In this document: positions 1,184 through 27,686 of the stretch, one piece after another
Position numbering within the stretch: the first letter of the stretch is position 1
Layout of the letters: each line of letters opens with the position of its first letter
DNA from: Actinopolymorpha cephalotaxi
GTDB lineage: Bacteria > Actinomycetota > Actinomycetes > Propionibacteriales > Actinopolymorphaceae
Direction of reading: 5' to 3'
NCBI RefSeq assembly: GCF_013408535.1
Contig: NZ_JACBZA010000001.1
Coordinates: forward strand, 3,370,850-3,434,849
DNA: 64,000 nucleotides
The notes under the pieces: generated by a model
Told to the model about the DNA's origin: nothing
Databases searched by the model: none
Seen by the model: the letters and a program-made list of their open reading frames with translations, nothing else
Position numbers and translations under genes: made by a program

Positions 1184-1347
1184 GGCCGCAGGCGTAGGGG
1201 TGGCGAATGGAGTTGGCACGACGGCCGCCCTTCGTACTGGCGTAACCAACGCCCTGGGCGGCTGGATGCTCAACCGTGCATCGAATGTACTCCGTGAGCA
1301 CGGATGTGGAAGCCCTTCGACCCGGTGACAAGGAGCTGCCCCGAAGG

Positions 1348-3072
<1,725 letters not shown>

Positions 3073-3123
3073 CTAGGCGAACAACTCTTCTCCGTACGGG
3101 TGGTGATGCACCAAGCTGTCGCC

Positions 3124-3777: not shown

Positions 3778-3784
3778 GCCTGCC

Positions 3785-3816
3785 GAACTGGCCCGGCCGA
3801 ACGAGCCCGGCCGAAC
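3785..3816 (+). repeat. Short direct repeat after devR
   Basis: Two adjacent copies of a 13-14 base unit (GCCCGGCCGAACG) lie just after the devR stop codon. They form no clear hairpin with a T-tract. No function is apparent. Confidence 0.4.
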
Positions 3817-3936
3817 GGGCCATGGAGCAGGGCCGTTTGGCCACGACAGAAAGGGACATTGCCAGCAGCATCGGCTGATGGCGGGCGAGATCCTTCTTGT
3901 GCATGGTTCATCCCCATACGGAGAAGGCAGGCCATC

Positions 3937-4602: not shown

Positions 4603-4680
4603 ACCCGAGCACGAGTCCAGCCTGAGCACGAGTCCGACCCGACCCGACCCACGAGTCCGACCCGGCCCGACCCCACCTGG
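4603..4680 (+). repeat. Imperfect direct repeats between doxX and the nitroreductase
   Basis: The spacer is built from repeated elements. GAGCACGAGTCC occurs twice and CACGAGTCCGACCCG-like units recur, mixed with GACCC repeats. It has no open reading frame of its own. It may reflect slippage or a protein-binding array. Confidence 0.45.
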
Positions 4681-4699
4681 CCCACCGACGGGGGATCCG

Positions 4700-5689: not shown

Positions 5690-5696
5690 GACCTGG

Positions 5697-6452
5697 TCAC
5701 CTGGCGAGGTAGACGGTGTTGGCCGACTCGCCCCTGGTCAGCGGATTGGCGAAGGTGACCACGTGCGCGTCGGCCTGGCGGAACACCTCCGCGAGTACGC
5801 CGAGGAAGGCGTCGTCGGGCGGGTCGTCGGACCACAGCGCGAAGACGCCTCCGGGGCGCAGGTGCCGGGCGAGCCGACGTATCCCGTCCGGGGTGTAGAA
5901 CGGCGCGTGCCGCGGGTGCAGGACGTGCCGCGGAGTGTGGTCGATGTCGAGCAGGATCGCGTCGACACGACCTCCCGGCGTCCGCGGATCGAACCCGCCG
6001 TCGGAGTCCACCAGGGCGAAGAAGTCACCGTGCACCAGGTGCGTCCGCGGATCGGCTGTCAGCTCGTCCGCACCGGGGATCAGCCCTCGCTGATGCCAGT
6101 CGATCACCTCGGCCAGGGCCTCCACCACGGTCAGCGAACGGACCCGCTGGTCGGTCAGGACGGCGCGCGCGGTGTAGCCGAGCCCGAGCCCCCCGACGAT
6201 CACGTCCAGGTCCTCGCCCTCCACCTGGGCCAGAGCCAGGTGCGCGAGTTCGGTCTCCCCCACCGTGAACAGGCTCGACATGAGGAACTCCTCGCCGAGC
6301 TTGGCCTCGTACACCTGGATCTTGAGCATCGGGTCGAGTCGGCGGCGCAGACTGATCACCCCCATCGGGGTGTCCGCCCAGGCCAGCTCCTCAAACCGCG
6401 CGCTCACGAGACGACGGGGGTGGAGAGCGGGTGGTACATGACGAAGCCTCAT
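5697..6452 (-). CDS. Spermidine-synthase-like class I methyltransferase-fold protein
   Basis: About 251 residues. The SAM/dcSAM-binding region has the motif IVGGLGLGYTARAVL followed by VVEALAEVIDWHQ, and later DAILLDIDHTPRH. This pattern belongs to spermidine-synthase-like proteins, many of which are not true polyamine enzymes. The protein is encoded convergently with the nitroreductase, seven bases separating the stops. The ATG at 6452 is preceded by AAAGG with very short spacing, so a GTG about 45 bases further in is a possible alternative. Its link to the redox cluster is by position only, and its substrate is unknown. Confidence 0.65.
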   Translation of the reverse strand: MRLRHVPPALHPRRLVSARFEELAWADTPMGVISLRRRLDPMLKIQVYEAKLGEEFLMSSLFTVGETELAHLALAQVEGEDLDVIVGGLGLGYTARAVLTDQRVRSLTVVEALAEVIDWHQRGLIPGADELTADPRTHLVHGDFFALVDSDGGFDPRTPGGRVDAILLDIDHTPRHVLHPRHAPFYTPDGIRRLARHLRPGGVFALWSDDPPDDAFLGVLAEVFRQADAHVVTFANPLTRGESANTVYLAR

Positions 6453-6555
6453 CCTTTGATCGGAAACCGACGGCGCGGACGACCGGCTCAGGGCGCCACG
6501 CGGCACGTCGGCGAGGGTACCCACCTGGTGCCGGGGCCACGTGCGCGCGGTGAGA

Positions 6556-7329
6556 TCAGCGCGCGTTGGAGTGTGGCCTCGGGCTGTCGGGCGCGGCGTG
6601 CGCGGCCCGGGCGGACCGCACCCGCCGAGTGAGGCGGGGCGGGTTCGCCGTACGGGGCGCACGGGAGCGGTAGACGATGTAGGGCCGGAAGAGGTAGCCG
6701 ACCGGCGCGGTGAACGCGTGCACCAGCCGGGTGAACGGCCAGATCGCGAACAGCAGCATCCCGATCAGGGTGTGCAGCCTGAACTGGACGGGTGCCCCGG
6801 CCATCGCGTCGATGTCCGGGTGCAGGACGAAGATCGAACGGAACCACGGCGCGACGGTCTCCCGGTAGTTGTGCTCCTGCCCGACCACGCCGGCACCCAG
6901 GAGGGTGGTGGCCAGTCCGGCGACGATGGCCGCGACGAGCACGACGTACATTCCCTTGTCGTTGCGGGTGGTGGCCATGAACACCGGACCGGTCGTCCGG
7001 CGCCGAAAAATGAGGATCGCGATCCCCACCAACGTGGCGAACCCGGCGACGCCGCCGAGCAGCAGCGCCTGCACGTGGTAGCCGTGCTCGGTCAGCCCGG
7101 CCGCGGTCGTCCAGGACTGCGGGACGACCAGGCCGATGAAGTGGCCGACCACGACGACCAGAATCCCGAAGTGGAACAACGGGCTGCCGATCCGCAACAG
7201 TCGCGACTCGTACAGCTCCGACGATCTCGTGGTCCAGCCGAACTGGTCGTAGCGGTAGCGCCAGATCGTGCCGCCGATCAGCACGGCCAGCGTGACGTAC
7301 GGGAGAACCGCCCAGGCGAGGACGTTCAT
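6556..7329 (-). CDS. narI: Respiratory nitrate reductase gamma subunit (cytochrome b)
   Basis: 257 residues, with five hydrophobic segments between about 5 and 205. Histidines in the second helix (GHFIGLVVP) and in the last two (QFRLHTLIGM, TRLVHAF) are positioned as the di-haem b ligands of NarI. The subunit takes electrons from the quinol pool and passes them to NarH. The C-terminal tail is Arg/Pro-rich and probably cytosolic. The ATG overlaps the narJ stop (ATGA at 7326-7329), so it is translationally coupled. It is the last gene of the narGHJI operon. Confidence 0.93.
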   Translation of the reverse strand: MNVLAWAVLPYVTLAVLIGGTIWRYRYDQFGWTTRSSELYESRLLRIGSPLFHFGILVVVVGHFIGLVVPQSWTTAAGLTEHGYHVQALLLGGVAGFATLVGIAILIFRRRTTGPVFMATTRNDKGMYVVLVAAIVAGLATTLLGAGVVGQEHNYRETVAPWFRSIFVLHPDIDAMAGAPVQFRLHTLIGMLLFAIWPFTRLVHAFTAPVGYLFRPYIVYRSRAPRTANPPRLTRRVRSARAAHAAPDSPRPHSNAR

Positions 7330-8024
7330 CGTGACCTTCCCTCCGTCGGCTCGGCCACGGGGCGGGCGGCGTAGGGTTCGAGCCCCACGCTCTCCTGGGG
7401 CGGCCCGGCTTTCGCCAGCCGCTGTGCGGCGGCCCGGTCGGCAGGAGACGGCCCGGGCAGCAGGGCGCAGACCGCCTCGACGACCCGGGCGTACGGCGAC
7501 CCCACGTCGACCAGGGCGAGCCGCAGGAGTTCGACTCCCGCGCGGTGTTCCTGCAGCAGGGCAAGGCCGTCGGTCACGTCACCGGTGGCGGCGTACTCCA
7601 GGACGACGGGCAGGTAGTCGGGCAGCTCGCCGCCCTCCCCGACCTCGCCGCCGAAGTCCAGCCCGCCCGAGCGGTACCGCTCCTTGAACGCGGTGAGCGA
7701 CTGCCCCCGGCGGCGGGTCTCCCCGTCGGCCCACCAGGTGAGGTGGAGGCAGCAGCGCCGGCGCCGGTCGAACGTCGCGACGTAGTGCTCGGCGAGGTCG
7801 CGTTCGGGCACGGCCGCAACGTGGTCGAGGAAGGCGGTCAGCGTTGCGCGGGGCTCACCCGCGGGACCCGCCGTCGGCAGCTGACGTACGGCAGTCGCCA
7901 CGACAGGCACCAGCGCGCGGATCGTCTCGTCGGGATACTGCAGCAGGATCGACGCGGCCTGGCAGACGATCGCGGCGTCCCGCGCACCGATGGTGCCGGT
8001 CCCCCGGGCCCCACCGGGCTTCAC
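7326..8024 (-). CDS. narJ: Nitrate reductase molybdenum cofactor assembly chaperone
   Basis: 232 residues of the all-helical NarJ/TorD family. Recognisable blocks are CQAASILLQYPDE, HYVATFDRRRRCCLHLTWWADGETRRRGQ and ELPDYLPVVLEYA. NarJ binds the NarG N-terminus and helps insert the FeS cluster and molybdenum cofactor before membrane docking. The start is a GTG that overlaps the narH stop in a GTGA arrangement at 8021-8024, and the 3' end overlaps narI. Four-base overlaps throughout point to one transcript with coupled translation. Confidence 0.93.
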   Translation of the reverse strand: MKPGGARGTGTIGARDAAIVCQAASILLQYPDETIRALVPVVATAVRQLPTAGPAGEPRATLTAFLDHVAAVPERDLAEHYVATFDRRRRCCLHLTWWADGETRRRGQSLTAFKERYRSGGLDFGGEVGEGGELPDYLPVVLEYAATGDVTDGLALLQEHRAGVELLRLALVDVGSPYARVVEAVCALLPGPSPADRAAAQRLAKAGPPQESVGLEPYAARPVAEPTEGRSR

Positions 8025-9778
8025 GAGTCACCCCCGTCCCCGTGCCCGTCCCCGGCCTGGTCCTCGGTCCGGCCCTCGGCACGATCCTCGGTCCGGCGGG
8101 CCGGGAAGAGACCGGACGGGGTGCCCTTGCCGTCCCAGTTGAGCAGGTTGATCCGGCTGCGGCGGCGCTCGGGGTCGGCGAGTCCCTCGCTCGTCTGCCG
8201 GTCCTTCAGCGCGTGGAACGTCTCCACCGAGACCGGTGTGGGCCGCCCGGACGCCTCACCGAACGGACCGCTCGCATACATGCCCGGGCCTTCGTCGTAG
8301 TCCAGGCTGCAGCTGAGCTCCTCCAGTTGCTGCGCGTCCCCTTCGTGCGCGGTGGGGATGACGTACCGGTCGCCGTACTTCGCCACCGCGAGCAGGCGGT
8401 ACAGCGCGGTGAGATCAGCGCCCGTCGTGCCCGCCGCCCGGGCGACGGACTCGTCGGGAGGATCGCCGAGGTTGACCGCCCGCATGTACGAACGCATGGC
8501 GGACAGCTTCCGCAGCACGTCGCGCACCGGCCCGGGGTCGCCCGCGGTGAACAGCTCGGCGAGGTACTCCACGGGGATGCGCAGCGCGTCGATCGCGCCG
8601 AAGAGGTTGTCGAGGTCCTCCCCGTCGTGGCCGGTCTCGCTGATCGCCTCGACCATCGGCGACAGTGGCGGGACGTACCACACCATCGGCATGGTGCGGA
8701 ACTCCGGATGCAGCGGCAGCGCGACCCGGTGCACCTTGGCGAGTGCGTAGACCGGGGAGCGCCGGGCGGCGTCCAGCCAGTCCTCGGGAATGCCGTCCCG
8801 GCGCGCGGCCGCGGCCACCTCCGGATCGTTCGGGTCGAGCAGCACGTCGAGCTGTGCCTCGTACAACGCCTTCTCGTCGGCCACCGACGCGGCCGCGGCT
8901 ACCCGGTCGGCGTCGTAGAGGAACAGCCCGATGTAGCGCAGCCGGCCCACACACGTCTCCGAGCACACCGTCGGCATGCCGACCTCGACGCGCGGATAGC
9001 AGAACGTGCACTTCTCCGCCTTGCCGGTGCGGTGGTTGAAGTAGACCTTCTTGTACGGGCAGCCCGTGACGCACATCCGCCAACCACGGCAGCGATCCTG
9101 GTCGACCAGCACGATGCCGTCCTCGCTGCGCTTGTACATCGCCCCCGATGGGCAGGACGCGACGCAGGACGGGTTGAGGCAGTGCTCGCAGATCCGCGGC
9201 AGGTAGAACATGAACGTGCGCTCGAACTCGAACCGGATCCGGTCCTCCGCCTGCCGCCGCACCCGTTCCACGATCGGGTCGGCGTCCGCGACCTCCGCCC
9301 CGCCGCCGAGGTTGTCGTCCCACGCCGCGCTCCACTCGACCTTCGTCTCCTTCCCCGACAGCAGGGACTTCGGCCGGGCGACCGGGAAGTCGTCGCCGAG
9401 CGGTGCGGAGGTCAGGGTGTCGTAGTCGTAGGTCCAGGGTTCGTAGTAGTCGCGGATGTCCGGCAGCACCGGGTTGGCGAAGATCGAGGCCAGCTTGCGG
9501 AAACGACCGCCGGCCTTCAGCCGCAGCCGGCCGCGGGACGTGCGGACCCAGCCGCCCTTCCAGCGCTCCTGGTCCTGGTAGCAGCGCGGGTAGCCCTGCC
9601 CGGGCCGGGTCTCGACGTTGTTGAACCAGACGTACTCGGTGCCGCTGCGGTTGGTCCACGCCTGCTTGCAGGTGACCGAGCAGGTGTGGCAGCCGATGCA
9701 CTTGTCGAGGTTCATCACCATGCCGAGCTGGGCCATGCAACGTCCGATCGACGACGGGGCACCGGTCGAAGCTGCCAT
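8021..9778 (-). CDS. narH: Respiratory nitrate reductase beta subunit (FeS)
   Basis: About 585 residues. Cysteine clusters typical of NarH are visible: DKCIGCHTCSVTCKQAW near the N-terminus, CEHCLNPSCVASCPSG, CRGWRMCVTGCPYKK (tryptophan in place of a cysteine, giving the 3Fe-4S centre) and CTFCYP. The subunit relays electrons from NarI to NarG. The ATG at 9778 overlaps the narG stop (ATGA). The frame is open further upstream, but that part is only an antiparallel reading of narG. The protein is longer than the E. coli enzyme (512), mainly in its C-terminal half, as in other actinobacteria. Confidence 0.95.
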   Translation of the reverse strand: MAASTGAPSSIGRCMAQLGMVMNLDKCIGCHTCSVTCKQAWTNRSGTEYVWFNNVETRPGQGYPRCYQDQERWKGGWVRTSRGRLRLKAGGRFRKLASIFANPVLPDIRDYYEPWTYDYDTLTSAPLGDDFPVARPKSLLSGKETKVEWSAAWDDNLGGGAEVADADPIVERVRRQAEDRIRFEFERTFMFYLPRICEHCLNPSCVASCPSGAMYKRSEDGIVLVDQDRCRGWRMCVTGCPYKKVYFNHRTGKAEKCTFCYPRVEVGMPTVCSETCVGRLRYIGLFLYDADRVAAAASVADEKALYEAQLDVLLDPNDPEVAAAARRDGIPEDWLDAARRSPVYALAKVHRVALPLHPEFRTMPMVWYVPPLSPMVEAISETGHDGEDLDNLFGAIDALRIPVEYLAELFTAGDPGPVRDVLRKLSAMRSYMRAVNLGDPPDESVARAAGTTGADLTALYRLLAVAKYGDRYVIPTAHEGDAQQLEELSCSLDYDEGPGMYASGPFGEASGRPTPVSVETFHALKDRQTSEGLADPERRRSRINLLNWDGKGTPSGLFPARRTEDRAEGRTEDQAGDGHGDGGDS

Positions 9779-12700
9779 CAGTACGTCACCTCCTGGCTGC
9801 GCCGGCGGATCACTGTCACCTCGTCGCGCTGGTTGCCGGTCGGGCCGAAGTAGTTGAACCCGAACGACAGCTGGGCGTAGCCGCCGATGAGGTGGGTGGG
9901 TTTGACGAGGATCCGGGTGAGGGAGTTGTGGATCCCGCCCCGGCGACCGGTGGACTCCACGAGCGGTACGTTGACGACGCGTTCCTGCGCGTGGTGGACG
10001 TACACCGTGCCCGTCGGCATCCGGTGGGACACGATCGCCCGCAGGACCATCACGCCGTTGCGGTTGACGAGTTCGACCCAGTCGTTGTCGCGGGCGCCGA
10101 CGGTGGCGGCGTCGGCCGGGCTCATCCACACCGTGGGGCCGCCGCGCGACAGGGTGAGCATGAAGAGGTTGTCCTGGTACTCGGAGTGGATCGACCACTT
10201 CGAGTGCGGGGTGAGGTAGCGGACGACGACCTGTCTGGATCCGTCGGGTCCGAGCGCCGGTTCGCCGAAGAGGCTCGCCATGTCCAGCGGTGGGCGGTAG
10301 ATGGGCAGCGCCTCACCGAACTCGTGCATCCAGTCGTGGTCGAGGAAGAAGTGCATCCGCCCGGTCAGGGTGTGCCAGGGCTTGCCCTCCTCGACGTTGG
10401 TGGTGAACGCGGCATACCGCCGGCCACCGGTCTCGCTGCCCGACCACTCCGGGCTGGTGATCACCGGCACCGGCGCGACCTGGGTGTCGGCGAAGGTGAT
10501 CCGGCGTTCCTCGCTGCCCTCGGCCAGGTGCGCGAGCGGCCGGCCGACCCGGCGCTCTGCCGTACGGAAGCCCTGCACCGCGAGCCGGCCGTTGGTCGCG
10601 CCGGACAGTGCGAGGATCGCCTCGGCCATCCTGGCGTCGGTGTCCAGGGCCGGGCGCCCGTCGCCGGCGCCGCCGAGCATGACGCCGTTGACCCGGCCGA
10701 GCCGTTCGACCTCCTCGTCGGGGTGGAACGTCACTCCCTTGGTGGGCAGGCCGAGGCGTTCGGCCAGCGGCCCGAGGGTCGCGAGCTTGTCCGCGATCGC
10801 GGTGTAGTCGCGTTCGACGACGGTGAGGGCCGGCATCGTCGCCCCGGGCGTCGCCGGGACCTGCCCGGTCCGCCAGTCCCGGACGGTGCCGCCGGTGCTG
10901 GTGGTCTCCCCCGGTGTGTCGTGCTGGGCGGCGGTCGCCACGACGTCGTGGCGTACGCCGAGATGGGTCCGGGCGAGCTCGCTGAACCGGCGGGCGATCG
11001 CGGTGAACGCGTCGAAGTCGGTCCGCGCCTGCCAGGGCGGGTCGATCGCCGGGTTGAACGCGTGCACGAACGGGTGCATGTCGGTGGAGGACAGGTCGTG
11101 CTTCTCGTACCACGTGGCGGCCGGCAGCACGACGTCGGCGAGCAGCGTGGAACTCGTCATCCGGAAGTCCAGCGCCAGCAGGAGATCGAGCTTGCCCTCG
11201 GGGGCCTCCGCACGCCATCGCACGTCCCGGGGCCGGCGCTCCTCCGGTGTCTCGTCGGCCCGGAGGTTGGAGTGGGTGCCGAGCAGGTGCCGCAGGAAGT
11301 ACTCGTTGCCCTTCGCCGAGGAGCCGAGCAGGTTGGCCCGCCACAGGGTGAGGCAGCGCGGCCAGTTGGCCGGGGCGTCCGGGTCCTCCGCCGCGAAGTG
11401 GAGATCGCCGTCGGCGAGCCGCCGGGCCACGTGCTCGGTGGCGTCCTCCCCCGCGGCCGCCGCCTCGTCGGCGAGGTCGAGGGGGTTCGCGTCGAACTGC
11501 GGGTACGACGGCATCCAGCCCAGCCGGGCGGACAGGGCGAGCGTGTCGGCGGTGTGCAGACCGGCGAGGTCGCCGCGGGCGAGGGGGGACGCGAGCGCGT
11601 CGGCGCGGTAGCCGTCGTAGCGCCACTGGTCGGTGTGGGTGTACCAGTACGCCGTACCGATCATCTGCCGCGGCGGGCGCTGCCAGTCGGTCGCCCCGGC
11701 GAGCGTCGCCCACCCGGTGACCGGGCGGCACTTCTCCTGCCCGACATAGTGCGCCCAGCCGCCGCCGTTGCGGCCCATCGACCCGGTGAGCAGCAGCAGT
11801 GCCAGGATCGCGCGGTAGGTGGCGTCGCCGTGGAACCACTGGCAGATTCCCGCGCCCATGATGATCATCGTCCGGCCGCCGGACCGCTCCGCGCTGCGGG
11901 CCATCTCCCGCGCGACGCGGGTCGCCGCCTTGGCCGGTACGGAGGTGAGCGGCTCCTGCCACGCCGGGGTGTACGGCTGGGAGGGGTCGTCGTAACCGGT
12001 CGGCCACTCCCCCGGCAGGCCGGCGCGGGAGACGCCGTACTGCGCGAGCATCAGGTCGAACACCGTCGTCACGAGGTGCTCCCCGACGCGGCGGGCGGGC
12101 ACTCCCCGCCGCAGGATCGAGTCGTCCCGCAGGATCGAGTCGTCCTGCCGGGCCTCGTCGCCGCCCCTGCCCGCCGAGAGGTCGAAGCGGGGCAGCAGGA
12201 CCTCGACGTTCTCCGCGTCACCGGCATCCCGCCCCAGCAACGTGAGCTGTGGCTCGATGCCGTCCAGGTGGAGGTTCCACCGGCCCTCCCCGGACGCGGT
12301 CCAACGGTCGCCGAGGGTGCCGTTCGGGACGGCCGGTTCGCCCGTACGCCCGTCGATCAGCACCGTCCGCCACTCCGCCCCCTCGCCGTGGTCGCCGAGG
12401 TCGGCCGCGCGCAACAGCTTGTGGGGTACGAGACCCGCGCCGGACTCGTGCTCCCGCAGCGTCACGAGGAACGGCAGGTCGGTGAAGCGGCGCACGTAGT
12501 CGACGAAGAACGGCACCCGGCGTTCCACGAAACACTCCCGCAGGATCACGTGCCCCATCGCCATCGCCAGCGCGCCGTCGGTGCCCGGCTGCGCGGGCAG
12601 CCAGGTGTCGGCGAACTTGGTGTTGTCGGCGTAGTCGGGTGAGACCGCGACCACCTTCTGGCCGCGGTAGCGCGCCTCGGCCATCCAGTGCGCGTCCGGC

Positions 12701-13548
12701 GTGCGGGTGACCGGGACGTTCGACCCCCACATCAGCAGGTAGGCGGCGTTCCACCAGTCGCCGGACTCGGGTACGTCCGTCTGGTCGCCGAACACCTGCG
12801 GCGATGCCACCGGCAGGTCGGCGTACCAGTCGTAGAAGGACGTCATGCACCCGCCGAGGAGTTCGACGAACCGCGAACCCACCGCGTGGGAGACCATCGA
12901 CATCGCCGGGATCGGCGAGAAGCCCGCGATCCGGTCCGGCCCGTACGCCCTGATGGTGTGCACGTGGGCGGCGGCGACCAGCTCCACCGCCTCGTCCCAC
13001 GAGACCCGCACGTGGCCGCCCTTGCCGCGGGCCCGCTGGTAGCTGCGGCGGCGTTCGGGGTCACCCACGACGTCGGCCCAGGCCAGCACCGGGTCGCCGA
13101 GCCGCTCCTTCGCCTGGCGGTACAGGTCGACCAGGACACCGCGGGCGTACGGGTAGCGCACCCTGGTCGGCGAGTAGGTGTACCACGAGAACGCCGCTCC
13201 CCGAGGGCAGCCGCGTGGCTCGTACTCCGGGGAGTCCGGGCCCACCGACGGATAGTCGGTCTGCTGGCTCTCCCAGGTGATGATGCCGTCCTTGACGTAC
13301 ACCTTCCACGAGCAGGAGCCGGTGCAGTTGACGCCGTGGGTCGAACGGACGACCTTGTCGTGGCTCCACCGGTCTCGGTAGAAGACGTCGCCCTCGCGGC
13401 CGCCGTGCCGGTAGACGGCCCGCAGGTCCGCGGAGGTCTCCCGCCGGGTGAAGAACCTGCCCGACCGCAACAGCAGGTCGGCGGCCGCCCCGTCGGTCGC
13501 CGCGTCCTGTCGCCGGGAACCGTTGCTGCGCGCACCATCGTGTTCCAC
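9778..13548 (-). CDS. narG: Respiratory nitrate reductase alpha subunit (molybdopterin)
   Basis: About 1256 residues, normal for NarG. The FS0 4Fe-4S ligands are His71, Cys75, Cys79 and Cys114 (HGVNCTGSC and PRGCPRG). The molybdenum-coordinating aspartate is Asp244 in SFYDWYADLP, equivalent to E. coli Asp222. Further family blocks are QTDVPESGDWWNAAYL and SVTRTPDAHW-like sequence. There is no twin-arginine leader, so this is the cytoplasm-facing membrane enzyme rather than the periplasmic type. The GTG at 13548 is preceded by GAGGTGG at good spacing and gives the usual N-terminus. First gene of narGHJI, divergent from the nitrate transporter at 13696. Confidence 0.95.
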   Translation of the reverse strand: MEHDGARSNGSRRQDAATDGAAADLLLRSGRFFTRRETSADLRAVYRHGGREGDVFYRDRWSHDKVVRSTHGVNCTGSCSWKVYVKDGIITWESQQTDYPSVGPDSPEYEPRGCPRGAAFSWYTYSPTRVRYPYARGVLVDLYRQAKERLGDPVLAWADVVGDPERRRSYQRARGKGGHVRVSWDEAVELVAAAHVHTIRAYGPDRIAGFSPIPAMSMVSHAVGSRFVELLGGCMTSFYDWYADLPVASPQVFGDQTDVPESGDWWNAAYLLMWGSNVPVTRTPDAHWMAEARYRGQKVVAVSPDYADNTKFADTWLPAQPGTDGALAMAMGHVILRECFVERRVPFFVDYVRRFTDLPFLVTLREHESGAGLVPHKLLRAADLGDHGEGAEWRTVLIDGRTGEPAVPNGTLGDRWTASGEGRWNLHLDGIEPQLTLLGRDAGDAENVEVLLPRFDLSAGRGGDEARQDDSILRDDSILRRGVPARRVGEHLVTTVFDLMLAQYGVSRAGLPGEWPTGYDDPSQPYTPAWQEPLTSVPAKAATRVAREMARSAERSGGRTMIIMGAGICQWFHGDATYRAILALLLLTGSMGRNGGGWAHYVGQEKCRPVTGWATLAGATDWQRPPRQMIGTAYWYTHTDQWRYDGYRADALASPLARGDLAGLHTADTLALSARLGWMPSYPQFDANPLDLADEAAAAGEDATEHVARRLADGDLHFAAEDPDAPANWPRCLTLWRANLLGSSAKGNEYFLRHLLGTHSNLRADETPEERRPRDVRWRAEAPEGKLDLLLALDFRMTSSTLLADVVLPAATWYEKHDLSSTDMHPFVHAFNPAIDPPWQARTDFDAFTAIARRFSELARTHLGVRHDVVATAAQHDTPGETTSTGGTVRDWRTGQVPATPGATMPALTVVERDYTAIADKLATLGPLAERLGLPTKGVTFHPDEEVERLGRVNGVMLGGAGDGRPALDTDARMAEAILALSGATNGRLAVQGFRTAERRVGRPLAHLAEGSEERRITFADTQVAPVPVITSPEWSGSETGGRRYAAFTTNVEEGKPWHTLTGRMHFFLDHDWMHEFGEALPIYRPPLDMASLFGEPALGPDGSRQVVVRYLTPHSKWSIHSEYQDNLFMLTLSRGGPTVWMSPADAATVGARDNDWVELVNRNGVMVLRAIVSHRMPTGTVYVHHAQERVVNVPLVESTGRRGGIHNSLTRILVKPTHLIGGYAQLSFGFNYFGPTGNQRDEVTVIRRRSQEVTY

Positions 13549-13695
13549 GTCGGTCCACCTCACCCCGGGGCTCGCCAGTCCGGCCAAAGTACCGCCACGC
13601 CGGACCGAACGGTAGGCAAACCGCCGCGCTCTGTGACAGCGTTGCCGTCGTGGCCGGACGCGGGTGCCGGCCGCGACCTGGCAGGGAGGACACCG
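13549..13695. promoter_or_regulatory. Divergent nar promoter region with a possible DosR half-box
   Basis: This 147-base spacer must hold the promoters of narGHJI (leftward) and the NarK-type gene (rightward). Read leftward it contains GGTACTTTGGCC (about 13582-13595), which resembles the GGGACTTT-GGCC core of DosR boxes. A TGTGA half-site lies near 13632. No full palindrome for FNR/CRP was found. Assignment is tentative. Confidence 0.35.
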
Positions 13696-14943
13696 GTGAC
13701 GCGCCGCAAATCCGCGCAGCCGCCCACCCGGCCGGCGGACGACATCGCGCCACCGGCCACCGGGATGCTCGCACTCGCGACCGTGGGGTTCGCCGTGGCG
13801 TTCTGGGCCTGGGCGTTGCTCGCCCCCCTCGGTGCGACCCTTCGCGAGCAACTCTCGCTCACGGCGTTCCAGCAGTCCCTCGTCGTCGCGGTCCCGGTCG
13901 TCGTGGGCTCGCTGGGCCGGATCCCGGTCGGCGCGCTCACCGATCGCTTCGGCGCCCGCCGGATGTTTCCCGCGGTGACCGCGCTGACGATCCTTCCCGT
14001 CCTCTACCTCGGCTTCCTGGCCGACTCGCTGGCCGAGGTGCTGATCGGCGGGTTCTTCCTTGGCCTCGGCGGAACGACCTTCGCGATCGGGGTGCCGTTC
14101 GTCAACGCGTGGTTTCCGGCGCAGCGGCGCGGCTTCGCCATCGGCGTCTTCGGGATGGGCACCGGCGGCACAGCCCTGGCGTCGTTCACCACGATCCCGC
14201 TCACGGATGCGCTCGGCCAGAGCTTTCCGTTCACGCTGGTGGCGATTCTGCTGGCGGTGTACGCGGTGACCGCCCACCTGCTGCTGCGTGACAACCCCAC
14301 CCGGCCGGCGGCGACCGCACCACTCCTCGCACGGATCGGCGCCGGCCTGCGTCACGGCGTCACCTGGCAACTCGCCTTCCTCTACGCGGTGGCGTTCGGC
14401 GGTTTCGTCGCGTTCAGCGTCTACCTGCCCACCTACCTCACCACGGCCTACGGCCTGGACAGATCCGACGCCGGTCTGCGGACCGCCGGGTTCGTCGTGC
14501 TGGCCGTGCTGATGCGCCCGGTCGGGGGCCTGCTTGCCGACCGCGTGGGTGCCGTTCCCGTACTCCTGTGCTGCTACGTCGTCATCGCGCTGCTCGCGGT
14601 CGTCGCCGCCACGAGGCCGCCGCTCGTGCCCGTCGGAACGGCTGCCTTCCTCGGCATGGCCGCCGCCCTCGGCGCGGGGTCCGGCGCGGTCTTCGCCCTG
14701 GTCGCCGCGCTGGTCCCGGCACAGGAGGTGGGCACCGTCACCGGGCTGGTCGGAGCCGCCGGCGGGCTCGGCGGCTTCTTCCCGCCGCTGGTCATGGGCA
14801 CGGTCTACGGGCTCATGGCGGACTACTCGTGGGGCTACATCCTGCTGGCCGTCACCGCAGCGGCCGCAGCCGCGTTCACCGCGACGATGGTGCGCCGACG
14901 AGTCGCCACGGTCGCACCAGCGGACCAGCCGGCGAGAGGGTGA
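13696..14943 (+). CDS. narK: NarK-family nitrate/nitrite transporter (MFS)
   Basis: About 415 residues with twelve hydrophobic segments. The nitrate-transporter signatures are seen in degenerate form: GLGGTTFAIGVPFVNAWFP between helices and GAAGGLGGFFPPLVMG near helix 11, both typical of NarK/NasA proteins. The start is a GTG at 13696 with a perfect GGGAGGA ribosome binding site five bases upstream. Reading further upstream only gives an antisense frame of narG. It probably imports nitrate for, or exports nitrite from, the divergent NarGHI enzyme. Confidence 0.88.
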   Translation: MTRRKSAQPPTRPADDIAPPATGMLALATVGFAVAFWAWALLAPLGATLREQLSLTAFQQSLVVAVPVVVGSLGRIPVGALTDRFGARRMFPAVTALTILPVLYLGFLADSLAEVLIGGFFLGLGGTTFAIGVPFVNAWFPAQRRGFAIGVFGMGTGGTALASFTTIPLTDALGQSFPFTLVAILLAVYAVTAHLLLRDNPTRPAATAPLLARIGAGLRHGVTWQLAFLYAVAFGGFVAFSVYLPTYLTTAYGLDRSDAGLRTAGFVVLAVLMRPVGGLLADRVGAVPVLLCCYVVIALLAVVAATRPPLVPVGTAAFLGMAAALGAGSGAVFALVAALVPAQEVGTVTGLVGAAGGLGGFFPPLVMGTVYGLMADYSWGYILLAVTAAAAAAFTATMVRRRVATVAPADQPARG

Positions 14944-14981: not shown

Positions 14982-15280
14982 CTCGACCACCTCGAGGCAT
15001 CCGGTACGTGCTTCACGAGGTCCACCGCGCCGTCGAGAACCGTCCTGACGTCCTCGCCCATGACGAGTGAGTGGTAGGCGTCGTAGAGCACCGCGACCTC
15101 GGGGCGTCCGACCTCGCGGACGATCGCGACCGTCTCCGGTGAGCGTCGGCGGGTGCGGCGAGGTTCTGCTCGAGGTGAGCCGCGGTGCCCGGCTCTTCGA
15201 TCGGTGCCGTGACGACGACGATCGTCACGCCCGTCCCACGAAGAGCCGCGGCGTAATCCTTTGCCTGGTCCGCGGGAGGA
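14982..15280 (-). pseudogene. Decayed, internally deleted copy of the hydroxypyruvate-isomerase-like gene at 19062
   Basis: From about 15008 to 15275 the DNA closely matches two separate parts of the intact gene (about 19262-19384 and 19593-19725) in the same orientation, with about 210 bases missing between them. Peptides recognisable on the minus strand are ETVAIVREVGRPEVAVLYDA and, in a shifted frame, AKDYAAALRGTGVTIVVVTA, so the copy is both deleted and frameshifted. The first 25 bases (14982-15006) match the intact gene in inverted orientation, encoding LDHLEASG on the plus strand. No start or complete product remains. Confidence 0.85.
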
Positions 15281-15506
15281 AAGCGTCGAATGCTGCCGAA
15301 ATGGCCGCGTTGCGCGTTCTGCGAGAACAACACAGGGCCGCGACAAAGAGTAGGGCAAGGACAGGACCCCTGGTTGAGGCGGCGTGGGCCGACGCGGGTG
15401 ACCCTCGAGAAGTGACCACTCGCAGGGAACGTCCACCAGACATGTCGCCGCGGCGCCATTTTCGGTCCTCCCTCAGAGCGGGCACTGCTTGGACGGTCGC
15501 CTCCTC
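15281..15506 (+). other. Leader region upstream of kaiB
   Basis: About 225 bases between the decayed isomerase copy and kaiB. I see no convincing gene. The base composition begins to drop here relative to the flanks. The kaiBC promoter should lie here, but no clear -35/-10 pair was recognised. Confidence 0.4.
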
Positions 15507-15815
15507 ATGACGACTTACACCTTCAGGTTGTACGTCGCCGGACAGTTCGCCGAGCGGGCCGAGACTGCTCTGTGGAACCTGCGAACCTTGTGTGAGTCGC
15601 GCGTGCCCGGGCGGTATGCGGTGGAGCTGATCGATCTGGAGAAACGGCCCGAGATGGCACAGGAAGAACGGATCCTGATGACTCCGACGGTGATCAGAAC
15701 TGACCCGCCGCCGCAGCGGCGGGTCATAGGTGTCCTGTCCGACCATCAGCGGGCAGCGTTCGCCCTTGGCCTTCCCGACGCTGACGGGCGCGCAGAGGAG
15801 AACACGAAGATATGA
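15507..15815 (+). CDS. kaiB: KaiB-family clock-like protein
   Basis: 102 residues, the length of KaiB. Family-defining positions are present: FRLYVAG at the N-terminus, GRYAVELIDLEKRPEMA in the middle, ILMTPTV, and the PPPQRRVIGVLS segment with the prolines around which cyanobacterial KaiB changes fold. In cyanobacteria KaiB binds phosphorylated KaiC and sets the clock phase; in other bacteria its role is less clear, often linked to stress. The ATG at 15507 was preferred over an upstream TTG. The stop overlaps the kaiC start in an ATGA, so both proteins are made together. No KaiA is seen in the window. Confidence 0.85.
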   Translation: MTTYTFRLYVAGQFAERAETALWNLRTLCESRVPGRYAVELIDLEKRPEMAQEERILMTPTVIRTDPPPQRRVIGVLSDHQRAAFALGLPDADGRAEENTKI

Positions 15816-17323
15816 CGAATTTCGTTGCCCTTGAACGAGTGCCGACCGGTATCAGTGGTTTCGACGAGGTCGCCGTGGGCGGTTTACCCGCAGGCCGATG
15901 CTGTCTGGTCTCCGGGACCACCGGTAGCGGCAAAACCCTGTTCTCCATCGAGTTCCTCGCCCGCGGCATCCTCGACTTCGGCGATCATGGGGTGTTCGTC
16001 ACGTTCGAGGAGACCGCTGATGACATCCGCCGCAACGCCGCCTCCCTCGGCTTCGCGATCGAAGAATGGGAAGCAGCGGGAAAGTGGGCTTTCGTCGACG
16101 CGTCGGCCAAGGTGGCCGACGAAGCGCCGACGATCGGAGAGTACGACTTCGGCGGACTCCTTGCCCAGATTAGTGCTGCCGCGCGCCGGATCAATGCCAA
16201 ACGGGTATCGATCGACTCCATTGGGGCGGTCTTCAGCAGATTCCCACTGGGTGGCGTCGTCCGTTATGAGTTGTTCCGGATTGTTGCCGGCATGGAGCAA
16301 CTTGGCGTCACCACGGTGGTCACGACCGAACGAAACTCCGAATACGACGGCGTATCTCGGCACAATGTCGAGGAGTTCGTGGTCGACAACGTGATCATCC
16401 TGCGGAACTACCTGGCAGAGCAGAGGCGTCGCCGCACGGTCGAGATCGTGAAGCTCCGCGGAGCACAACACCGCAGCGGTGAGTGGCTCTTCACCATCGA
16501 TCCCGAACGCGGCCTGGTCGTCATCCCGATGGCTTACATAGTCCACCGGCCCGCGGCATCCAGCGAACGGGTCAGTTCCGGGATACCGGGACTGGACGCA
16601 ATGTGTGGCGGCGGCTTCTTCCGGGACGCGATCGTTCTCATCACCGGCCCCACCGGGACAGGAAAGACCCTTACCAGCCTCCAGTTCATCGCCGAGGGGG
16701 TCCGCGCCGGCGAACGTTGCCTCCTCTACACCTTCGACGAGACCCGGGAGCAACTCAACCGGAACGCCAGTGGCTGGGGACTCGACCTGAACGAGATGGA
16801 GGCATCCGGGCTCCTGCGGGTCAACAGCGAATACCCCGAGACCGCCGCAATGGAGGATCACTTCATGCGGTTGTGGGCAGTAATGCGACAGTTCCGTCCA
16901 CATCGCCTTGCTCTCGATACTCTCTCCGCGCTGGAGCGAATCGGCTCGCCGCGCGCGCTACTCGATTTCGTCATCTCGCTCGGATCCCTCTTGCGTCAGG
17001 GTGAGACCACCGCGCTACTGACGTCTGCCCCCAGCGCGACGACCGGCCGCGCGGGCCCACCTATATCTGTCGAGATCGCTAGCTTCACCGACGCCACGAT
17101 CCTCTACCGATATGTCGAAACTCCCGAGCGGGAGATTCAACGCGCCATCGCCGTGGTGCAGACTCGAGGATCCACTCATGACCACGCGATCAGAAAGATC
17201 AGCATCGACGAGCAGGGTATGCACATCGGCGACCGGCTTCCGAGCCTCCCTGGTGGAGGTGTAAGCCTCCCGGAGAACCCGCAGTGGCCTATTTCTTCAG
17301 GGCCTCCCATCGGAGGGCTGTGA
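15812..17323 (+). CDS. kaiC: KaiC-family double-domain RecA-like ATPase
   Basis: 503 residues, close to cyanobacterial KaiC. Two RecA-like domains are present: CI with Walker A GTTGSGKT (35-42) and the catalytic pair Glu66-Glu67 (FEETADD); CII with Walker A GPTGTGKT (279-286) and FDETREQLNRNA, where Asp309-Glu310 replaces the usual Glu-Glu. The phosphorylation-site region reads EIASFTDATILYRYVE, so the Ser431-Thr432 dyad of the clock protein is Ala423-Ser424 here. ATP binding and CI ATPase activity are expected. The autophosphorylation cycle is probably altered. The start overlaps the kaiB stop. GC content is noticeably lower than in neighbouring genes. Confidence 0.88.
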   Translation: MTNFVALERVPTGISGFDEVAVGGLPAGRCCLVSGTTGSGKTLFSIEFLARGILDFGDHGVFVTFEETADDIRRNAASLGFAIEEWEAAGKWAFVDASAKVADEAPTIGEYDFGGLLAQISAAARRINAKRVSIDSIGAVFSRFPLGGVVRYELFRIVAGMEQLGVTTVVTTERNSEYDGVSRHNVEEFVVDNVIILRNYLAEQRRRRTVEIVKLRGAQHRSGEWLFTIDPERGLVVIPMAYIVHRPAASSERVSSGIPGLDAMCGGGFFRDAIVLITGPTGTGKTLTSLQFIAEGVRAGERCLLYTFDETREQLNRNASGWGLDLNEMEASGLLRVNSEYPETAAMEDHFMRLWAVMRQFRPHRLALDTLSALERIGSPRALLDFVISLGSLLRQGETTALLTSAPSATTGRAGPPISVEIASFTDATILYRYVETPEREIQRAIAVVQTRGSTHDHAIRKISIDEQGMHIGDRLPSLPGGGVSLPENPQWPISSGPPIGGL

Positions 17324-17367
17324 CCCACTGCCCCGGAGTTACCCGCTGGCCCGCGTAGCATGGTCGA

Positions 17368-19065
17368 GTGGCTGACACCAAGAGCCACGATTCGGTCGTG
17401 TCACCTGACAACCCCTGGCCGTCCCAGTCGTCGGGGCAATCCTCCGAATCACGGCACCCGGCGGGAAAGCCCGATCCGGTTCTGGAAGGCATCGTCGAGG
17501 CGGCATGTCGCCTCGGCGGCCGTCGCTGCGGCCTGTTGATGCTTCATATCGGAGGAGTCGTCCCAAAAACCATCACCAGTGGCTTTCGGACCAGTCCCGA
17601 TATCGGTTGGGATCCCCTGATAAGGCAGTTGCACGACCTCACCCGCGACACGAAGGATCCGGTCCGTCTCAACGACCTGTCCCGATACCCGGCAGCCCAT
17701 CGAACTCTTCGCCGGCATCTTCCGCGAGCCCATGGTCTCCTCGTGGTGCCGATCCGCAAAGGGCCTGACCTCCAGGGTTATCTCTGCGTCGTATCCGAGG
17801 AGCAGGAGCCACAGTTCACCACCGGCGACGAACACACCGTGGCCACCCTTGTCAGCGCCACGTACAGCGCTATCGAGAACGTCGAACTACACGACAGCCA
17901 ACGTCGACGTCACGGCTGGCCCGACATCGCCACAGAAGTCGCCAAACTCCTGCTCGGAGAAGTTGACCTCGATCGAGCCATGCGGTTGGTGACGCAGCGT
18001 CTGCGCGATCTCGCCGGCGCCGACTGCACCGCGATCGCCCTGACCGACCCCGCAGACCCCGACGGGGCGCTGCAGGGAATCCTCGAGTGGTCCCGGATGT
18101 GCGCCGTCCACATCCGTCTCCCGCGCAGAGGCATGGTGGGTGAGGCGTTGCAGCGGGGCCGTCCGGTGATCGTCGACGACGCCGTTCTCGAACCTGGGGC
18201 GGACCTGCTTCTTGACTGGGCGGCCGAAACCGCCCCCATCGGCACCGCAATGTTCATTCCCCTTGTCACCCGCGACCACATCGTCGGGGTGTTGTTCTCC
18301 GGATGGCGCCAGGACGCCCCGCTGGCGGAATGCGCCAAAGCCGAAAAAACCCTCGTCAGCATCTTTGCCGAGCAGATCACTCCCGTCCTCCAACGCGTCG
18401 AACAGCAAAGACTCGGTGTCCAGGACCGCCTGACCGAAGACCGCGAACAGCTTGCCGGCAAGCTCTGTAACGTAGCGATGGAACGCATGCTCGCCATCAG
18501 TACACAGCTGCACAGCATCGAGGGACGCTCCACCGACAGCGAACTCCGCCAACGCCTCACCCACGAAGTCGGCCAGCTCGACGACTCCCTCCAACAACTG
18601 CGCGCGACGATCTTCGGCATCGACGTTCCGGACCCACATCCCTCCCCCACCGGCGACGAGCCGCAGCCGTCGGTGTCCGACTCTCTACTCCACGAACTCG
18701 ACTCCTCCCTGACCTTTCTCGGGTTCGTGCCACGCCTGGTCATCCAGGGGTCCCTCTGCAACATCTCCCCAAGACTGGGAGTCGAACTGACCAACGCCGT
18801 CCGCGAAAGCTTGGCAAGTGCGGCCCCCTTCTCGCCTCGGAGTGTCGAGGTGGTTGTCCGCGCATCGGCAACCCACCTCAATCTCCAGGTGACCGACGAC
18901 GCCCAAACTCGCGGCCCGGACCGCGCGACCTGCCCTGCGGAGCTGCGGGCCCGCGCCAACCGCCTCGGCGGCACATGCACATGCCGAACAGACGGGCGCC
19001 ACAACATCCTCAACTGGACCATCCCCACCGGCTCAGGCACGGTTGGCGCAGCCGCTCGAGCCTAA
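17368..19065 (+). CDS. DosS-like double-GAF protein with a degenerate histidine kinase core
   Basis: 565 residues with the layout of a DosS-type kinase: GAF (about 38-175), GAF (about 190-345), a dimerisation helix and a HATPase-like end. The phosphoacceptor motif DLHDQ is replaced: DREQLAGKLCNVAMERML has Cys367 where His should be. The N-box has Ser484 for Asn, and the G1 box DDGxG reads DDAQTR (Ala512). It should therefore not autophosphorylate or bind ATP normally, although the fold may be kept. The GTG at 17368 lies 45 bases after kaiC, so it is probably the third gene of the operon and may be the output or input partner of KaiC. Its last four bases overlap the stop of the convergent isomerase gene. 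Confidence 0.75.
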   Translation: MADTKSHDSVVSPDNPWPSQSSGQSSESRHPAGKPDPVLEGIVEAACRLGGRRCGLLMLHIGGVVPKTITSGFRTSPDIGWDPLIRQLHDLTRDTKDPVRLNDLSRYPAAHRTLRRHLPRAHGLLVVPIRKGPDLQGYLCVVSEEQEPQFTTGDEHTVATLVSATYSAIENVELHDSQRRRHGWPDIATEVAKLLLGEVDLDRAMRLVTQRLRDLAGADCTAIALTDPADPDGALQGILEWSRMCAVHIRLPRRGMVGEALQRGRPVIVDDAVLEPGADLLLDWAAETAPIGTAMFIPLVTRDHIVGVLFSGWRQDAPLAECAKAEKTLVSIFAEQITPVLQRVEQQRLGVQDRLTEDREQLAGKLCNVAMERMLAISTQLHSIEGRSTDSELRQRLTHEVGQLDDSLQQLRATIFGIDVPDPHPSPTGDEPQPSVSDSLLHELDSSLTFLGFVPRLVIQGSLCNISPRLGVELTNAVRESLASAAPFSPRSVEVVVRASATHLNLQVTDDAQTRGPDRATCPAELRARANRLGGTCTCRTDGRHNILNWTIPTGSGTVGAAARA

Positions 19066-19850
19066 CGCGGTCTCTGACGCTCCTCGATCACGCGGCGGAG
19101 TATCTCGGTCGACGCGACGGACTCCACGGTCGGCTGGTACTCCAGGCCGAGCGGACCGACGTAGCCGGACGCCTCGAGGTCGTCGAGCAGCTTCGCCCAG
19201 TCCAGCGTTCCCGTTCCGGCTTCGTGCCGCCCCGGCACGTCCGCGACCTGGACGTGCCGCACGAGGTCCACGGCGTCGGTGAGGACCGTCCTGACGTCCT
19301 CGCCCATGACGAGTGAGTGGTAGGCGTCGTAGAGCACCGCGACCTCGGGTCGTCCGACCTCGCGGACGATCGCGACCGTCTCCGGCGTCGAGTCGAGGAA
19401 ACAGCCGGGGTGGTCGACGCGGGAATTGAGGTTCTCCAGCACGATGCCGACGCCGGAGCCCGCCACGATGTCCGCCGCCCGCCTCAGAAACTCCACGAGC
19501 GTGGCCCGCTGCTCCCGGGGTTCGACGCCATCGAGGATCGTTCCACCGGTCACCACGAAGTGCCGTACGCCGATCCGCTGCGCGACCGGCAGAGCGTCGG
19601 CGAGCGCGGCGAGGTTCGGTTCGAGCTGAGCCGTGTCGCCCGGCTCCCCGACCGGTGCGGTCACGACCATGATCGTCACGCCGGTCTCACGAAGAGCCGC
19701 GGCGTAGTCGGCTGCCTGGTCGGCGGTGGGCAGCGGCCACGTGTCGACGAATCGGAACCCGGCCGAGGCGGCGGCCCGGACCCGGTCCGCGGGCGAGGGC
19801 CCGGCCTCGGTGAACAACCACGTCAGGTTGGGCGACAGCTCGAAGGTCAC
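19062..19850 (-). CDS. Hydroxypyruvate-isomerase-like TIM-barrel protein
   Basis: 262 residues of the xylose-isomerase-like TIM-barrel family. The start FELSPNLTWLFTEAGP is typical of hydroxypyruvate isomerases, and the metal-binding segments VLENLNSR, LYDAYHS, HVQVADVPGRHE and GLEYQP are all present. Such enzymes interconvert hydroxypyruvate and tartronate semialdehyde or related sugar acids. The start is the GTG at 19850 after AGGAGAAG. A degraded copy lies at 14982-15280, so the kaiBC module is bracketed by two copies of this gene. It is divergent from the PIG-L gene. Confidence 0.78.
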   Translation of the reverse strand: MTFELSPNLTWLFTEAGPSPADRVRAAASAGFRFVDTWPLPTADQAADYAAALRETGVTIMVVTAPVGEPGDTAQLEPNLAALADALPVAQRIGVRHFVVTGGTILDGVEPREQRATLVEFLRRAADIVAGSGVGIVLENLNSRVDHPGCFLDSTPETVAIVREVGRPEVAVLYDAYHSLVMGEDVRTVLTDAVDLVRHVQVADVPGRHEAGTGTLDWAKLLDDLEASGYVGPLGLEYQPTVESVASTEILRRVIEERQRPR

Positions 19851-20027
19851 TTCTTCTCCTCGGAGGCGAGTGGGTACCGGTCGATGCACCGGACGAGGTA
19901 CTGGGCGGGGGCGTCAGGGCGAGTGTCCACGTGCACGCCGAGGACGCACAAGCTCGACATCGACGTGCCGACGGTGTAGACGCACTGGAGGGGACCGCGC
20001 CCCGCAGCCTCTACGAGGAGGAGATCG

Positions 20028-26702: not shown

Positions 26703-27686
26703 ATGGCCGGCATGTCACCGCTCGGCTCGTATCTGGAGTGGCAGCACGCTCAGGTGAGTACGCCACGCCCGGTGCTGGCCGACGTCGTACGCCGCGCGGT
26801 CGGATCCGAGATCGACCGGATCGAAAGGATCGTGGAGGGCTACTCCAACGAGGTCTACCGGGTCCGGTGCGCGGACGCGCAGGACGTGGTGATCCGGATC
26901 CCGCGGTTCGACGACGCCCCTTCCCCCGCCGCCTCCCAAGGCGAGGCCCGGGCGATCGAAGGTGCTCGCGCCGCCGGCGTGCCCGTCCCGGAGATCCTGC
27001 TGCTCGACACGGTACGGATCGACGGCGCCGAGCTCCCCGTCATGGTGCAGCGAACCGTGCCCGGCCGTCCGCTGGGCGACGTGATCGATGGTCTCTCGCG
27101 GCGACAACGCCACGACGTACTCACCGAGATCGGCGAACTGATCGCCCGGATCAACGGGATCGACGTCGAGCACCCACTCGACTGGCCGACGGCGATGTCG
27201 GCCGACCTGGCGAACCGACAGGCGAACCGGGACAGGATCCTTGCCGGCGGGTTCTCGGCACCCGAGTTCGACCGAATGCTTGGCCTGCTGCAGGGATACG
27301 TCCGTGACCACCCCTGCGAGCGATGGGTGCTGTGCCATGGGGACCTCGGCCCCAAGCACATCTTCGTGTCCGGCGACGACGCCGATGGCGCGGCTGTGCG
27401 CGTCAGCGGGATCATCGACTTCGGTGACTGGAAGCCGGGCCCACCGGTCCACGACCTGGCCGTGCTCCGGGTTCGCGGTCCGCTGCTGGAGCTGTCACCA
27501 CTTCTCGCCGGCTACGGCGCGCCCACCGGCACGGCGTACCGGCGGCAGCTCGACCTGCACACACTGATCATCGCGCTGGGTTCGCTGGAGATCGGCGTGG
27601 ACGAGAACGACCATGCCTGCATCGAGCGCTCGCGCCGCCAGATCCGCCGCATCGTCGGCGACCTCGACAACCCGTCGTCGACCTGA
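26703..27686 (+). CDS. Aminoglycoside-phosphotransferase-fold kinase
   Basis: About 327 residues of the APH/choline-kinase family. The N-lobe has IVEGYSNEVYRVR and DVVIRIPRF. The catalytic loop is LCHGDLGPKHIFVSG, with HGD kept but the usual Asn of HGDxxxxN replaced by His. The metal-binding segment is GIIDFGDWKPGPPVHDLA. Small-molecule kinases of this kind phosphorylate antibiotics, sugars or choline; nothing here identifies the substrate. Start at 26703, or a second ATG nine bases later. Divergent from the secreted propeller gene, with 250 bases between them in which I see no clear signal. Confidence 0.72.
   Translation: MAGMSPLGSYLEWQHAQVSTPRPVLADVVRRAVGSEIDRIERIVEGYSNEVYRVRCADAQDVVIRIPRFDDAPSPAASQGEARAIEGARAAGVPVPEILLLDTVRIDGAELPVMVQRTVPGRPLGDVIDGLSRRQRHDVLTEIGELIARINGIDVEHPLDWPTAMSADLANRQANRDRILAGGFSAPEFDRMLGLLQGYVRDHPCERWVLCHGDLGPKHIFVSGDDADGAAVRVSGIIDFGDWKPGPPVHDLAVLRVRGPLLELSPLLAGYGAPTGTAYRRQLDLHTLIIALGSLEIGVDENDHACIERSRRQIRRIVGDLDNPSST

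Follow-up and report, generated by a model that had tools for sequence, protein, structure and literature searches.

A kaiBC locus with a degenerate DosS-like kinase in Actinopolymorpha cephalotaxi: a possible case of Kai signalling that needs no phosphorylation

The locus and its genes

A window of 64,000 nucleotides from Actinopolymorpha cephalotaxi (contig NZ_JACBZA010000001.1, positions 3,370,850 to 3,434,849) was analysed. The window lies within the 6.86-Mb single-contig genome of this soil actinobacterium, and it carries three co-directional genes on the forward strand: kaiB (15507..15815), a double-domain kaiC (15812..17323), and a third gene (17368..19065) which encodes a 565-residue GAF-GAF protein related to the kinase DosS. 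kaiB and kaiC overlap by 4 bases, and 44 bases separate kaiC from the third gene. The region upstream of kaiB (15340..15506, +) is partly conserved with A. rutila, with positions 15340-15419 being 90% identical to 4015-4095 of the A. rutila locus (L003).

The window KaiB scores 68.5 bits against PF07689, above the gathering score of 27, and is 79-83% identical to the KaiB proteins of L051 and L003. KaiC matches PF06745 in two stretches (354 bits) and, with 545.9 bits, exceeds the cut-off of 408 for NF006799, so that it has the two tandem ATPase domains of a KaiC. Both proteins fall below the equivalog cut-offs for their circadian namesakes: KaiB reaches 64.9 bits against TIGR02654 (cut-off 145.3) and KaiC 465.7 bits against TIGR02655 (cut-off 546.25). 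The third protein matches GAF_2 in two stretches with 74.4 bits. The genome has one KaiB and one full-length KaiC; beyond these, KaiC is matched only by a fragment of 65 residues (E 1e-5). An initial annotation, made from the sequence alone, had read the locus as a coupled kaiB and full-length double-domain kaiC followed by a GAF-GAF protein, and the Pfam matches, the coordinates and the 4-base overlap bear this out.

Residue losses in KaiC

The window KaiC was aligned with KaiC from the Protein Data Bank (PDB), and residues are numbered by their Synechococcus elongatus positions. It has D at E318, Q at K457, I at T426, A at S431 and S at T432. The four CII residues taken as marks of an oscillator (E318, T426, S431 and T432) are thus all replaced, while K52, E77 and E78 in the CI domain are intact. 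On the + strand the changes fall at codons D309-E310 (16736..16741, aligned with E318-E319), in the phosphosite loop with I418, A423 and S424 at T426, S431 and T432 (17063..17083), and at codon Q450 (17159..17161, aligned with K457). The tail of the protein is 30 residues long.

These positions matter in S. elongatus, as far as the excerpts of the papers cited here and below go. E318 is the CII catalytic glutamate, E318A and E318D are both arrhythmic, and K457 helps hold the phosphates of ATP (PMC2777353). T426A, S431A and T432A each abolish the rhythm (PMC2778140), and the CII motifs are conserved across cyanobacterial KaiCs (PMC5520375).

A tree of 41 KaiC rows was built with the columns around E318/E319 and the phosphosite loop excluded and the K457 column included; the partial KaiC L059 was omitted from both the tree and the residue tally. 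The window KaiC falls in a clade of 12 rows (support 100/99). Throughout this clade E318 is D (12/12), K457 is Q (12/12) and T426 is lost (I 10, V 1, G 1). S431 is mostly A (A 9, T 2, S 1), T432 mostly S (S 9, G 2, A 1), and E319 is kept in ten rows (E 10, G 2). The CI residues E77, E78, K52, K224 and R226 are retained in 12/12. The 20 other short-tail KaiCs keep E318 in 18 cases, K457 in 18, T426 in 15, S431 in 16 and T432 in 13. D at E318 also occurs outside the clade, in L070 and L072. The reading frames are intact in three species, and the ratio of nonsynonymous to synonymous substitution rates (dN/dS) is 0.12-0.15 for KaiC and 0.14-0.26 for KaiB.

The clade's KaiB proteins, in an alignment read by eye, have A and G in 12/12 members at the columns we take to be G88 and D90. 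These two sites have been proposed to govern KaiB fold switching (PMC5520375). As a separate observation, the CI Walker A motif ends in AKT rather than GKT in the KaiCs L074-L077, L065, L066, L070, L072 and L082, several of which have full CII phosphosites.

KaiA was sought with PF07688. There was no match at E<=5 in the A. cephalotaxi genome, where a divergent KaiA could be missed, and none above the cut-off in any of 21 genomes. Because the residues for phosphotransfer are lost from KaiC and no KaiA was detected, a phosphorylation clock seems unlikely in this system, judging from the sequences.

The third protein is a degenerate DosS-type kinase

The third protein has the domain order of DosS/DevS: two GAF domains, then a DHp domain and an ATP-binding (CA) fold. 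It does not pass as a catalytic DosS/DevS, since the phospho-acceptor histidine and the ATP-binding boxes are lost. GAF2 lies at 17923..18402 (+), the DHp-like domain at 18403..18612 (+), with C367 at the phospho-acceptor position, and an ATP-binding-domain fold without the N and G1 motifs at 18667..19035 (+). The H-box reads KLCN, as opposed to DLHD in L097 and L098, the two intact-looking DosS-like kinases of the same genome, and relative to these controls the N-box asparagine and the G1-box glycines are gone. In Pfam only the GAF domains are matched, and neither HisKA_3 nor HATPase reaches E<=1e-3. The structure model still shows the CA fold, and by fold the C-terminal domain resembles DosS/DevS most closely; elsewhere the model is of low quality, and its reading is confined to the CA domain. 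The initial annotation's description of a DosS-like GAF-GAF protein with lost kinase residues agrees with this comparison of the H-, N- and G1-boxes.

Constraint differs between the domains. GAF2 (dN/dS 0.15-0.24) and the DHp-like domain (0.15-0.20) are constrained almost like KaiC, and GAF1 (up to 0.75) and the CA domain are relaxed. The controls for these values were 9 chosen paralogue pairs, some of which have large gaps or shifted limits (the L092 pairs), so they are rough. The domain-resolved values disfavour a pseudogene.

The annotation had also placed the third gene where a SasA-like output kinase would be expected. The slot holds up: this kinase relative, stripped of its catalytic residues, sits where a genus of another family has a PAS-HisKA-HATPase kinase that looks intact. 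The likeness to SasA does not: the protein has no N-terminal KaiB-like domain and no active HisKA or HATPase motifs, and SasA was rejected as its identity. Redox sensing, another suggestion, found no support either. H117 falls on, or one column off, the site of the first-GAF histidine of DosS/DosT, depending on the aligner; we take that histidine to be the haem ligand. H117 is present in the window and in A. rutila, and is replaced by Q in the congener G005, which leaves haem or redox sensing through GAF1 unsupported.

Distribution and conservation of the three-gene order

In the small family to which the window belongs KaiC is common, with matches at E<=1e-60 in 7 of 8 genomes. Even samples of the order, class and phylum gave 14/391, 13/394 and 16/396 genomes, in line with the annotation's remark that Kai proteins are uncommon in actinobacteria. 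Two freshwater actinobacteria are described as having no Kai proteins in the excerpt of one study (PMC8591293).

Besides the window there were 47 KaiC places, and 41 were examined with their flanks (all but L041, L043-L046 and L050). A relative of the third protein lies beside KaiC in three of the 41, L003, L051 and L052 (tblastn, E<=1e-4), with the L052 match covering residues 159-557 only. Within the named genome collection the only such relative is that of A. rutila (L003), at 72% identity. The window, L003, L051 and L052 form one KaiC subclade (support 100/100), so that the third gene stands beside kaiBC in 4/4 members, and these four carry kaiBC and the third gene at four different genomic settings. 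The third-gene tree unites the same four. Its first version warned of long branches meeting, and a mixture model retained the group at 99/98; L052 loses its supported place once the triad of the other three is omitted. The three-gene order is therefore conserved at the orthologous locus. It is absent from five further kaiBC copies of the genus (L053-L057), so the partnership is real but phylogenetically narrow.

The A. cephalotaxi genome has six other DosS-like genes. Apart from L097 and L098, the phospho-acceptor is Arg in L092, Asp in L095 and Cys in L096, and L094 keeps His with a degraded CA domain. L092, L094, L095 and L096 each have close matches in congeners (76-89% identity) with the same phospho-acceptor residue; L161, another match to L092 at 48% identity, has His instead. 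The third protein is one of several conserved pseudo-DosS paralogues of the genus, and the Kai-linked proteins, including that of L052, form one branch (99/98, mixture model). Several DosS-like matches lie in one array on contig C35 of genome G001.

The slot behind kaiC varies. In another family of the class (L062 and L063, both read, with the L062 protein scanned for domains) it holds a PAS-HisKA-HATPase protein with intact-looking motifs. The L052 third gene encodes a PAS-GAF pseudokinase with Tyr in place of His, and its PAS domain is 59-60% identical to those of L062 and L063 (E 2e-37 and 3e-37, library size 100,000). These PAS domains are also related to those of genes behind kaiC in L061 (PAS-HATPase) and L079 (PAS-GGDEF). 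Across related loci the one output slot holds variously a PAS-kinase that looks live, a pseudokinase of PAS-GAF type or one of GAF-GAF type. The L061 gene, 1566-2591 bases past the start of the kaiC match, has an Asp aligned at the phospho-acceptor position (read by eye), and its ATP-binding domain matches HATPase_c, which makes it another, separate instance of an altered output kinase.

Base composition and insertion site

GC content at third codon positions (GC3) is 0.757 for kaiB, 0.742 for kaiC and 0.753 for the third gene, against a background of 0.878 +/- 0.064 in 206 open reading frames (ORFs), which a simple rule selected in 20 stretches of 20 kb each of this genome. In codon adaptation the three genes rank 0, 4 and 9 from the bottom of the 206. 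The lower GC that the initial annotation noticed is thus visible in both measures. Its suggestion of acquisition fared less well for the window itself, as congeners carry the same low-GC3 cassette elsewhere; in A. rutila (L003) and L051 its genes also have GC3 below most flanking ORFs. Any acquisition appears to predate the split of these species, to judge from composition and placement.

The cassette is bordered on the left by a truncated fragment of a hydroxypyruvate-isomerase-like gene, hyi (15001..15281, -), whose two blocks share 93% and 84% identity with the full copy; identity to the hyi of three congeners is 78-91%. On the right stands the intact hyi (19062..19889, -; PF01261, and below the cut-off of TIGR03234). 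Homology with the three congeners' hyi begins at 19070 or 19074, and homology with L003 spans 15340 to 19041, with a gap. Because hyi borders the cassette here and lies about 133 kb from kaiC in G003 and about 70 kb in G005, the cassette occupies a different genomic place here than in its congeners. Recent transposition was rejected: the cassette is also present in congeners, and no transposase or integrase was noticed among the window genes scanned, in which no aimed search was made. Viral carriage was set aside too, as a KaiC scan of viral contigs gave 2 pattern matches, neither of them a relative.

The cassette adjoins a NarK-like gene and narG. Directly to its left, 638-14943 holds a respiratory nitrate cluster with narG, narH, narI and a transporter resembling NarK, which scores under the cut-off of its model. 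The same region encodes a GAF protein (638-1273) and a DosS-type kinase that is intact (1348-3051). On the other side, DNA adjacent to hyi in G004 is found here at 26989-27674, ~7 kb right of hyi, a sign of local rearrangement.

REC proteins upstream of other kaiB genes

At six loci whose upstream genes were read (L060, L061, L064, L078, L079 and L080), a REC-type protein is encoded directly upstream of kaiB. Five of the six were scanned; four score above the REC family cut-off, and L061 only below it. These neighbours share a conserved, helical-looking C-terminal domain in the position of kaiA3. A profile (A1) of the six C-terminal domains was searched in 24 genomes and matched 7, and six of its eight matches are the REC-type neighbours themselves. 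It had no match in 7/7 tested genomes of the window's family, and none at E<=0.01 in A. cephalotaxi.

In a PDB search with the C-terminal profile, 7 of 12 matches at E<=1 were named KaiA (best E 0.059), and an unrelated chain ranked ahead of them (E 0.036). The likeness to KaiA is thus below significance, while position and layout match KaiA3. An identification as KaiA was rejected as weak, with the PF07688 search also giving matches in 5/14 control genomes, Escherichia coli included. The excerpt of the KaiA3 study names five genera with KaiA3 outside cyanobacteria, none actinobacterial (PMC11372060). The REC-carrying actinobacterial kaiBC loci may be systems of the KaiA3-KaiB3-KaiC3 type. All six retain E318, E319, T426 and S431, and since loci with no visible REC gene also keep these residues, the association runs one way only.

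Proposed mechanism and alternatives

We tentatively suggest, with somewhat less than even confidence, that the locus encodes a KaiBC ATPase switch that works without KaiA and without a phosphorylation signal, and that is read by a ligand-gated, non-catalytic GAF adaptor. With its CI domains intact, KaiC would still assemble into a ring that hydrolyses ATP. KaiB would bind CI in a nucleotide-dependent way, so that the state of the ring would track ATP/ADP or elapsed hydrolysis, and CII would no longer drive a cycle of autokinase and dephosphorylation. A small ligand on GAF2 might set the conformation of the conserved DHp-like dimer. That dimer would act by binding rather than phosphotransfer, either on the KaiB-KaiC ring or, in mixed dimers, on an intact DosS-type kinase. 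The model for mixed-dimer action is RetS, which has the histidine-kinase fold and has been proposed to work through contact with a second kinase, GacS. For the KaiBC part there is a precedent in Rhodobacter, where KaiB binds CI and speeds the KaiC ATPase whether or not KaiC is phosphorylated, and ATP/ADP serves as the cue (PMC10076222). The CI residues checked for such a mechanism are retained in the window KaiC.

The wider evolutionary account is possible but is held with less confidence than the mechanism. One actinobacterial lineage, without KaiA, would have dismantled its CII autokinase, and the Actinopolymorpha branch would then have added a pseudokinase in the output slot, leaving a CI-ATPase/KaiB switch with a binding-only output.

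Several points weigh against this phosphorylation-free reading. The KaiC losses are shared with L062 and L063, which have a live-looking PAS-kinase, and with L053-L057, which have no third gene; the losses are therefore older than the pseudokinase and not tied to it. The third protein (72% and 68-69%) is less conserved than most pseudo-DosS orthologue pairs (76-89%), and the confidence intervals of single-domain dN/dS are wide. In the excerpt on E318, the mutant reported without phosphoryl transfer is E318A, not E318D (PMC2777353), and S424 leaves one hydroxyl at the T432 position, so a weak KaiC autokinase may persist. No KaiC assayed in one broad survey lacked kinase activity (PMC5520375).

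These last points feed an unlikely alternative, a reduced but still phosphorylating hourglass in which Asp serves as the base for weak autophosphorylation at S424, phosphate is removed under the action of KaiB and the GAF protein senses an input. Ser stands at position 432 in 9/12 clade rows and Asp is a conservative change, with E318D not stated in the excerpt to lack phosphoryl transfer (PMC2777353). However, E318D, T426A and S431A individually abolish the rhythm in S. elongatus (PMC2777353, PMC2778140), K457 is Gln in 12/12, and three clade rows have no hydroxyl at 432 (G 2, A 1). Slightly less likely still is that the GAF protein is independent of Kai, a member of a genus-wide DosS-like network that merely shares a transcript. 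That would fit the six other DosS-like genes, several of them degenerate and conserved in congeners, as well as the kaiBC copies L053-L057 with no such neighbour. It fits poorly with a neighbourhood kept in 4/4 members at four genomic settings, with the agreement of the KaiC and third-gene trees on this group, and with the kinase found in the same slot in another family. Decay of the whole module, with no present role for any part, would explain the catalytic residues lost from both KaiC and the third protein and the relaxed GAF1, but the frames are intact in three species, the CI residues are invariant, and KaiC, KaiB, DHp and GAF2 are under constraint, which makes decay very improbable.

The bacterial clock is generally taken to centre on the phosphorylation of KaiC. 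A clade in which the catalytic glutamate, the phosphate-contacting lysine and the phosphosites have changed, yet the CI ATPase, KaiB and the operon are kept, would be a natural case in which the KaiB switch driven by the ATPase is uncoupled from cyclic phosphorylation. With such a clade one can ask by direct test whether nucleotide state is enough for KaiBC to signal. No open-literature paper joining Actinopolymorpha and KaiC was found, in a search whose scope excluded most subscription papers and all of bioRxiv; nor did the papers listed by related searches, judged by title and abstract beginning, point to a GAF pseudokinase linked to kaiBC or to a clade of KaiCs that lack the glutamate of CII.

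Comparison with known systems

Like the S. elongatus KaiABC system, the window has a KaiB and a double-domain KaiC from adjacent genes, with the CI ATPase residues in place. It differs in that no KaiA was detected, in the replacement of CII E318, K457, T426 and S431, and in its neighbour, which is not SasA-like and lacks catalytic motifs. With the KaiA3-KaiB3-KaiC3 system of Synechocystis (PMC11372060, excerpt) it shares the kaiB-kaiC order, and other actinobacterial loci have a REC protein at the kaiA3 position; in the window no REC-KaiA-like gene lies upstream of kaiB, and profile A1 found none in the genome. The third protein has the GAF-GAF-DHp-CA order of mycobacterial DosS/DevS, from which it differs by the loss of the phospho-acceptor histidine and the N and G1 boxes, and by a candidate haem histidine absent in one congener. 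Compared with the RetS-GacS pair, it belongs to a different family and its partner is putative. The Rhodobacter sphaeroides KaiBC hourglass (PMC10076222, excerpt) likewise has no KaiA, but its KaiC has a coiled-coil extension and phosphorylates, whereas in the KaiC of the window the tail is 30 residues long and the phosphosites are eroded.

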